Source: Chloroflexota bacterium (lineage in GTDB: Bacteria; Chloroflexota; Dehalococcoidia; Bin125). Taken from it: 64,000 nt of DNA. Shown in pieces: positions 20,453 to 22,165 of the stretch. The notes below the pieces were generated by a model. That model did not search any database and was not told the origin of the DNA. It was given only the letters and a program-made list of their open reading frames with translations. Where the stretch lies: positions 1-64,000 of the forward strand of contig JAPPFB010000005.1 in assembly GCA_028875225.1 (NCBI GenBank). The letters run 5' to 3'. Position 1 is the first letter of the stretch. Each line of letters starts with the position of its first letter. A program made the translations under genes and the position numbers.

Positions 20453-22165
20453 ATGGTTCTGATCGATACAGTTCTACCCTTCGTCGGCATCCTGCTGGGA
20501 CTGGTCGTCCTGCACGAACTCGGTCACTTCGTCGCCGCCAAGCTGGCCGGCGTTCGGGTTGAAGAGTTTGGCGTCGGCCTGCCGCCGCGAATCGGCAAGG
20601 GCTGGCAATTCGGCGAGACGCTCTACTCCTTCAACTGGCTGCCCATTGGCGGCTTCGTCCGCCTGACCGGCGAGGAAGCGTCGGGGCTGCTCATCACCGC
20701 CGTCGACCAGGACTCGCGGATGAAGGACCACTTCGTCGCCGGCGACCGGATCCTCAAGGTCAACGGCAAGCGTGTCGTCACGCCGGATCAGTTCCTCGAC
20801 CGAATCTTCCGCACCCATGGCGAAGAGAAGCGCGAGTTCACCTACGACCACGTCGAGAGCGATGGCAGGAAAACCACGTGGAGCCTGACCCTGACGCCTC
20901 AGGGTGACCCGGACGAGGACGCCCCTGCGCCTCGCAACCTGATCACGACCGAACAACAACGGGCCGAGTTCATGAACGAGCGCGGCGAGGCCACGCTGAT
21001 GGGTCTGACAGTGGGGATCGACCCTCGCTCGCTCGGGTCCAAGTCGCGGTTGACCAGGATCCTGATCCTCGCCGCCGGTGCGATCGTCAACGCCATCCTG
21101 CCGATCATCCTCTTCGCCGTCGGCGCGCTGATCCCCGACAACGTCTCGGCCGGACCGGCTGTGGTGACCAGCACGATCGAGCAGGCGCCTGCGCACCAGG
21201 CCGGCATTCGCGCCGGCGACCGCATCGTGGCAATCGACGGAGAACCGATTCAAAACGCGGCCCAACTCTCCCGCGCCATCCAGCTCAATCTGGGCGAGAC
21301 CCTGCTGGTCTCGGTCGAACGCCCGCCCAGTGGTTCACTCACCGCGAGCCGCGCCTCTCGCGAGCCGGAGCGATTTGATGTGCTGGTGCACGCCCGTCTC
21401 GCGCCGCAACCGCTGACGCACGTGGTTCAGTCCGGAGACTCGGTCCACGACATCGCCGACCGGCTCGGCGTGCCGCCCGCCTCGGTGATCGCCGCCTGGG
21501 GGATCGAGACGGAGAAGCTGAAGGAAGGCCTGGAACTGGAACTTCCCGGCGGCATGACCTATGTGACCGAACAAGACGACACCATGCTCAGCATCGCCAT
21601 CGAAGAGAAAGTCAGGATGGCCTCGGTCTACGCCGCGCTGGACATCGATCCCGTTCATCCGCCGCCCGGAACTCAGATCGAAGTGCCACAGGGCGCCACT
21701 GGAATCAGCATTGCCGACGCCTCACGGTTGGTCGCTCGCGACAGCCCCTCAATCGGCGAGTCCATCGCCGCCGGCTGGACGCAGACACGTGACACCTTCA
21801 TCCTCGTCCGCAATCGGATCCGCTCCTGGATCGCCGGTGGCGAACCAATCGAGTTGTCGGGTCCGGTTGGAATTGCCCGAGTGACCGGCGAAGTCGTCGA
21901 CCGTGCCGGCTGGTCGCGACTGATCGAACTCGCCGCCCTGATCTCGTTGAACCTCGCCATCATCAACATCCTGCCGCTGCCGATGCTCGATGGAGGCCGG
22001 ATCATGTTCGTCCTGATTGAAATCGTTCGCCGCGGCAAGAAGATCAGCCCCGAGCGCGAAGGCCTCGTCCACATGGCCGGATTCGCCGCCCTGCTGATCT
22101 TCGTCGTCGTGATCAGCTACTTCGACATCATCAAGGCCGTCTCCGGCGAACCCGTCATCCCGTAG
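20453..22165 (+). CDS. rseP: RIP (site-2) metalloprotease RseP-like with LysM insertion
   Basis: A 570-aa membrane metalloprotease. HELGH (residues 21-25) is the zinc site and NILPLPMLDGGRIMF carries the second conserved Asp. A PDZ domain (about residues 238-285) follows the central helix. Between the PDZ domain and the C-terminal membrane part, residues ~320-412 look like two LysM repeats (THVVQSGDSVHDIADRLGV and a weaker second copy), which is not usual in RseP. In the family the enzyme cleaves transmembrane anti-sigma factors and leftover signal peptides. Last gene of the core cluster. Confidence 0.9.
   Translation: MVLIDTVLPFVGILLGLVVLHELGHFVAAKLAGVRVEEFGVGLPPRIGKGWQFGETLYSFNWLPIGGFVRLTGEEASGLLITAVDQDSRMKDHFVAGDRILKVNGKRVVTPDQFLDRIFRTHGEEKREFTYDHVESDGRKTTWSLTLTPQGDPDEDAPAPRNLITTEQQRAEFMNERGEATLMGLTVGIDPRSLGSKSRLTRILILAAGAIVNAILPIILFAVGALIPDNVSAGPAVVTSTIEQAPAHQAGIRAGDRIVAIDGEPIQNAAQLSRAIQLNLGETLLVSVERPPSGSLTASRASREPERFDVLVHARLAPQPLTHVVQSGDSVHDIADRLGVPPASVIAAWGIETEKLKEGLELELPGGMTYVTEQDDTMLSIAIEEKVRMASVYAALDIDPVHPPPGTQIEVPQGATGISIADASRLVARDSPSIGESIAAGWTQTRDTFILVRNRIRSWIAGGEPIELSGPVGIARVTGEVVDRAGWSRLIELAALISLNLAIINILPLPMLDGGRIMFVLIEIVRRGKKISPEREGLVHMAGFAALLIFVVVISYFDIIKAVSGEPVIP

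Follow-up and report, generated by a model that had tools for sequence, protein, structure and literature searches.

Architecture of the protease

The window, by which we mean the whole 64,000-nucleotide stretch analysed here, contains on its forward strand an ORF (20453..22165) whose translation is a 570-aa RseP-type site-2 protease (P0001). Profile searches with this protein gave 185.2 bits against TIGR00054 (cut-off 147.55), an E-value of 5.5e-49 against Pfam PF02163 and 67 bits against PDZ_6 at aa 237-290, and its nearest solved structures are the RseP proteins of A. aeolicus and E. coli. ORFs resembling frr, uppS, cdsA and dxr, as read from the sequence, lie 5' of the gene, and such frr-uppS-cdsA-dxr surroundings are typical for RseP genes. 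One further M50 protein is present in the genome; since it is CBS-like and has neither PDZ nor LysM, the gene in the window is the sole RseP-type M50 found there.

All features of the protein are encoded on the forward strand. TM1 (20453..20545; model helix 2-31) carries the zinc motif H21-E-L-G-H25 and is followed by a membrane-reentrant beta-loop region (20558..20665; aa 36-71), recognized from model strands 36-46, 51-53 and 56-71 and from the alignment to A. aeolicus RseP. A family-specific insert (20678..21007; aa ~76-185) separates this region from TM2 (21047..21130; model helix aa 199-226). Next comes the first part of an extracytoplasmic PDZ domain (21137..21403; aa 229-317), equivalent to RseP PDZ-C, which the PDZ_6 match and the structure model locate between TM2 and TM3. 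The PDZ is interrupted by LysM domain 1 (21413..21550; aa 321-366) and LysM domain 2 (21551..21688; aa 367-412), the latter degenerate in the genus, and resumes with its terminal strands QGATGISIA.. (21689..21745; aa 413-431; strands 418-422 and 427-430), which include an invariant QG-TGI. A helical region (21752..21832; helix aa 434-460), probably the RseP PCT region according to the RseP alignment, leads to TM3 (21911..21997; helix 487-506) with the LDG motif N505..P508-L-P-M-L-D513-G, and the protein ends in a helix corresponding to TM4 (22049..22141; model helix aa 533-563). Both the HExxH and the LDG motifs are invariant among the aligned relatives.

The ~110-aa insert that follows the reentrant beta-loop and precedes TM2 is itself a PDZ domain in the family of the window protein (f1): the PDZ_6 match is weak here (5e-4), the domain being diverged in this genus, and clear in the relative L028 (47 bits, cut-off 27), and the AlphaFold model has PDZ-like secondary structure. 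From RseP topology it probably lies on the cytosolic side. Among LysM-bearing proteases it is restricted to f1, the alignment showing it to be absent from the LysM-bearing L051, L052 and L104 and from ordinary RseP. Other insertions were seen in this half of the protein elsewhere in the class. A Dehalococcoidales RseP (L118, whose reading contains one stop codon close to its end) has an unrelated ~110-aa insert, located between the GEED motif and TM2, in the place of the f1 cytosolic PDZ. In SAR202-like and other Dehalococcoidia RseP proteins (L080, L081, L084, L087, L096, L098, L099, L106 and L071), insertions of ~60-100 aa lie within the membrane-reentrant beta-loop region, after PPR and before the YS.NWLPLGG strand.

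The window protein shares with group I site-2 proteases, such as E. coli RseP (7w6x), A. aeolicus RseP (9j82) and B. subtilis RasP, the HExxH of TM1, the reentrant beta-loop, an extracytoplasmic PDZ, the NxxPxPxLDG of TM3, four predicted TMs, membership in TIGR00054 and the frr-uppS-cdsA-dxr-like genes on its 5' side. It differs from them in that its single extracytoplasmic PDZ is split by two LysM domains and in that it has an additional PDZ on the predicted cytosolic side. By these sequence features it is an orthologous housekeeping intramembrane protease of the RseP/RasP type, belonging to a peptidoglycan-making Dehalococcoidia lineage, and the LysM-bearing RseP is predicted to carry out intramembrane proteolysis. 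The group III proteases, for example SpoIVFB, likewise combine a site-2 protease with a regulatory accessory domain; in that group the domain is CBS and PDZ is lacking, whereas the accessory module of the window protein is LysM. A 2023 review of bacterial site-2 proteases lists PDZ and CBS as their accessory domains (PMC10202637), and we found no published report in the open-access literature of LysM combined with S2P, RseP or M50.

The LysM pair and its insertion site

The earlier note had described LysM-like repeats in the protease, the second copy weaker than the first, and profile comparison together with structure modelling confirms a tandem LysM pair at aa ~319-413 (21407-21691). The motif THVVQSGDSVHDIADRLGV occupies residues 322-340 of the ORF product. 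Two observations would suit a mere chance resemblance to LysM, shown by low-information sequence or by a degenerate PDZ: on the full-length protein the LysM score is 16.4 bits, under the Pfam cut-off of 20.9, and copy 2 taken alone has no Pfam match in the window protein or its genus. We nevertheless consider such an artefact extremely improbable. On the isolated insert PF01476 reaches 21.4-21.7 bits for copy 1 (gathering score 20.9), and it also matches all 12 of 12 diverse homologous inserts, with a best E-value of 2.2e-12. In the relatives the counterparts of copy 2 score 31.1 and 26.0 bits. A profile built from the 12 relatives' inserts, compared against the PDB, recovered the tandem LysM of a Thermus NlpC/P60 protein (4uz2) with E=1e-11 over positions 4-94 of 95, spanning both copies. 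Finally, the insert recurs in 26 genomes with an unbroken reading frame.

The AlphaFold model of the full protein contains two successive beta-alpha-alpha-beta units, E321-324, H331-338, H342-349 and E361-364 in LysM 1 and E368-371, H378-384, H389-395 and E408-411 in LysM 2, with pLDDT mostly 83-92 within the full protein and 89-95 when the insert is folded alone. The weaker second copy is a real LysM domain as well, and the reading of the insert as an ordinary second PDZ is ruled out by the LysM profile matches and the insert-alone model; the same fold, with the 4uz2 match and the 12 inserts, also refutes the chance reading. The top Foldseek match of the insert in the PDB was again 4uz2 (E=6.1e-4, prob 0.97), with a TM-score of only 0.26-0.31 over the two-domain chain, which is expected if the relative orientation of the two LysM domains differs. 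The LysM pair of the Thermus thermophilus NlpC/P60 endopeptidase (4uz2, 4xcm) is thus the best match to the insert by both sequence profile and structure, and its tandem has the same spacing as that of the window protein. In the Thermus enzyme, however, which is a secreted wall hydrolase, the pair forms the N-terminal module, whereas in the window it is a loop insert of a membrane protease.

The repeats had been placed between the PDZ domain and the last membrane segments. An extracytoplasmic location is supported, but alignment and model put them in a loop inside the PDZ, ahead of its last strands and of the conserved QGATGI. The window family reads ..ARLAP-[95 aa]-QGATGI.., where most other relatives have a short PPEGQG loop (..ARW.PPEGQG.TGI.I..), and when relatives lacking the insert are aligned to E. 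coli RseP, the site falls in the PDZ-C loop SKPGNGK, directly before the IGFVGI strand. Since this loop faces outward in the known RseP topology (PMC12067869), the LysM pair probably faces outward too.

Another ~110-aa insert occurs exactly at the LysM site in family f15 and its relatives (L032, L053-L055, L162 and L163); its copy in L053 matches Pfam NusA_N (28.2 bits, cut-off 23.8).

Distribution and evolution of the insert

We searched 393 Dehalococcoidia genomes with a profile covering the end of the PDZ, the LysM pair and the following segment. Full-length matches were obtained in 26 of them, one broken by a contig end, and the remaining matches in the class cover essentially the protease half only. 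The carriers are all 20 genomes of family f1, four of f59 and two of f50; f59 has the insert only in part, as its members G212 and G271 encode an ordinary RseP. One f15 protein, from G114, gives a weak alignment that spans the site (5-175, E=5.5e-14), but its insert is different. In a sample of 400 Chloroflexota genomes no fused LysM and protease match was found outside Dehalococcoidia, where only the LysM half was matched.

On a tree of the insert-free protease core the presence of LysM needs three parsimony changes, and a single clade of LysM-bearing proteases is rejected (AU p=0.0006); the L110 protein has no LysM insert in its sequence. The f1 insert profile gives 47-50 bits on the f59 inserts, 39 on one of two distinct f50 inserts and 17.6 on the other, against at most 24 bits on other LysM domains of its own genome, a small comparison set. 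The f59 and f50 insert profiles score 61-85 bits on each other. On a joint profile, LysM pairs of the generic kind from other parts of the phylum reach ~60 bits. Because the inserts of the three lineages, bar the one f50 insert, resemble each other above own-genome LysM, we lean towards one origin with losses or transfer over three gains. Within the genus pN/pS is 0.22 for the LysM pair, 0.27 for the outward PDZ, 0.41 for the cytosolic PDZ and 0.08 for the rest of the protein. Purifying selection thus acts on the insert, at about the strength seen for the PDZ.

Glycan binding and the PDZ gate

LysM domains bind peptidoglycan or other GlcNAc polymers. The reading that we develop here starts from the LysM pair in the loop of the extracytoplasmic PDZ of a housekeeping RseP. 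The protease would carry out site-2 cleavage as usual, on single-pass membrane proteins that have already been trimmed, such as anti-sigma factors and leftover signal peptides. The LysM pair would meanwhile bind a GlcNAc-containing glycan, either peptidoglycan or nascent strands close to the membrane. Such binding would tether the PDZ "gate" and concentrate the protease at the wall, and changes in the wall may shift the position of the gate. Anchoring is the likeliest of these steps, and wall-dependent regulation is a further and less certain one. Taken as a whole, tethering of the gate to peptidoglycan or nascent glycan by the LysM pair has in our estimate an even chance of being right. It agrees with the identities of both the RseP and the LysM parts (Pfam, PDB profile, structure model and the Foldseek match to 4uz2), with the position of the insert within the PDZ, as aligned to the PDZ-C loop of E. 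coli RseP, and with its retention throughout f1 under selection about as strong as that on the PDZ. The short linkers to the LysM pair may limit its reach to a distant sacculus and count against a tether.

The pair could instead have kept the LysM fold and lost glycan binding, serving the PDZ as a steric or structural module that adds bulk to a size-exclusion filter or makes protein-protein contacts; we hold this to be possible, though somewhat improbable. The RseP PDZ is held to work as a substrate or size filter (PMC10202637, PMC12067869). The different insert at the LysM site in the peptidoglycan-lacking f15 relatives and in L053-L055 favours the structural module, as it suggests that bulk in this loop may matter above glycan binding. 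The residues that would contact sugar bear on both readings. In the Thermus LysM structure the contacts come from the S1-H1 and H2-S2 loops and are largely main-chain (PMC4356369). Nearly all first copies retain the Gly and Ser/Thr of the S1-H1 loop, which are sugar contacts there: LysM 1 has a conserved GD(S/T) loop in the window family, and GD/E-S/T is found in almost every first copy. This argues for a tether and against a purely structural role. In LysM 2 the GD/E-S/T is kept partly, with an invariant Thr and with GD lost across much of the genus. The Asn after helix 2, in the H2-S2 loop, is missing from both copies in all carriers, unlike in Thermus NlpC/P60 and in most other LysM domains of the window genome. 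The loss of this typical LysM residue and the eroded motif of copy 2 speak for the structural module and against the tether. Yet LysM alanine mutants still bind sugar (PMC4356369, PMC4083421), and since the contacts are mostly main-chain, side-chain changes are expected to weaken binding and not to abolish it (PMC4356369; similarly PMC4083421). From sequence, peptidoglycan binding by the pair is plausible.

Peptidoglycan is ancestral in Dehalococcoidia and was lost in later orders (PMC10284905). Transpeptidase-domain PBPs were found in all 26 LysM-bearing genomes, versus 167 of 393 in the class sample, and none was found in the three f15 genomes tested (G068, G033 and G114). That every carrier is a peptidoglycan maker by transpeptidase content favours the tether over the structural module. 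A further point for the tether is a MurG match that lies within a few kilobases of a PBP locus; at 217.9 bits it is under the curated cut-off of 250 and is for that reason a lead only. Against the tether, most peptidoglycan-making relatives lack the insert, and the association of insert and peptidoglycan is suggestive and phylogenetically weak, coming from three lineages only. Placed in the PDZ gate, the LysM pair would physically couple an intramembrane protease to the wall, which is of interest in a class that lost peptidoglycan in some lineages and kept it in others (PMC10284905), and the LysM-bearing RseP would provide a clean system in which to ask whether the activity or position of a site-2 protease depends on peptidoglycan.

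Beyond tethering, wall binding by the LysM pair might switch the protease directly, so that the enzyme itself senses wall damage or thinning. We conjecture that peptidoglycan-bound LysM would then control substrate access at the gate and link wall state to intramembrane proteolysis with no separate sensor. This appears unlikely: in the literature searched we found no ligand gating of such a kind documented for any site-2 protease. In its favour, the LysM pair is set in the domain that controls RseP substrate access (PMC10202637), and at least one ECF sigma-like gene of the genome is adjacent to a gene for an anti-sigma-like protein with hydrophobic segments. That ECF sigma-like ORF lies at ~164991 of contig C17 of G000 (L169). 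Its neighbour near 165 kb, a membrane-anchored zf-HC2 anti-sigma-like protein that is ~400 aa long and contains two hydrophobic segments, is a possible substrate of the RseP.
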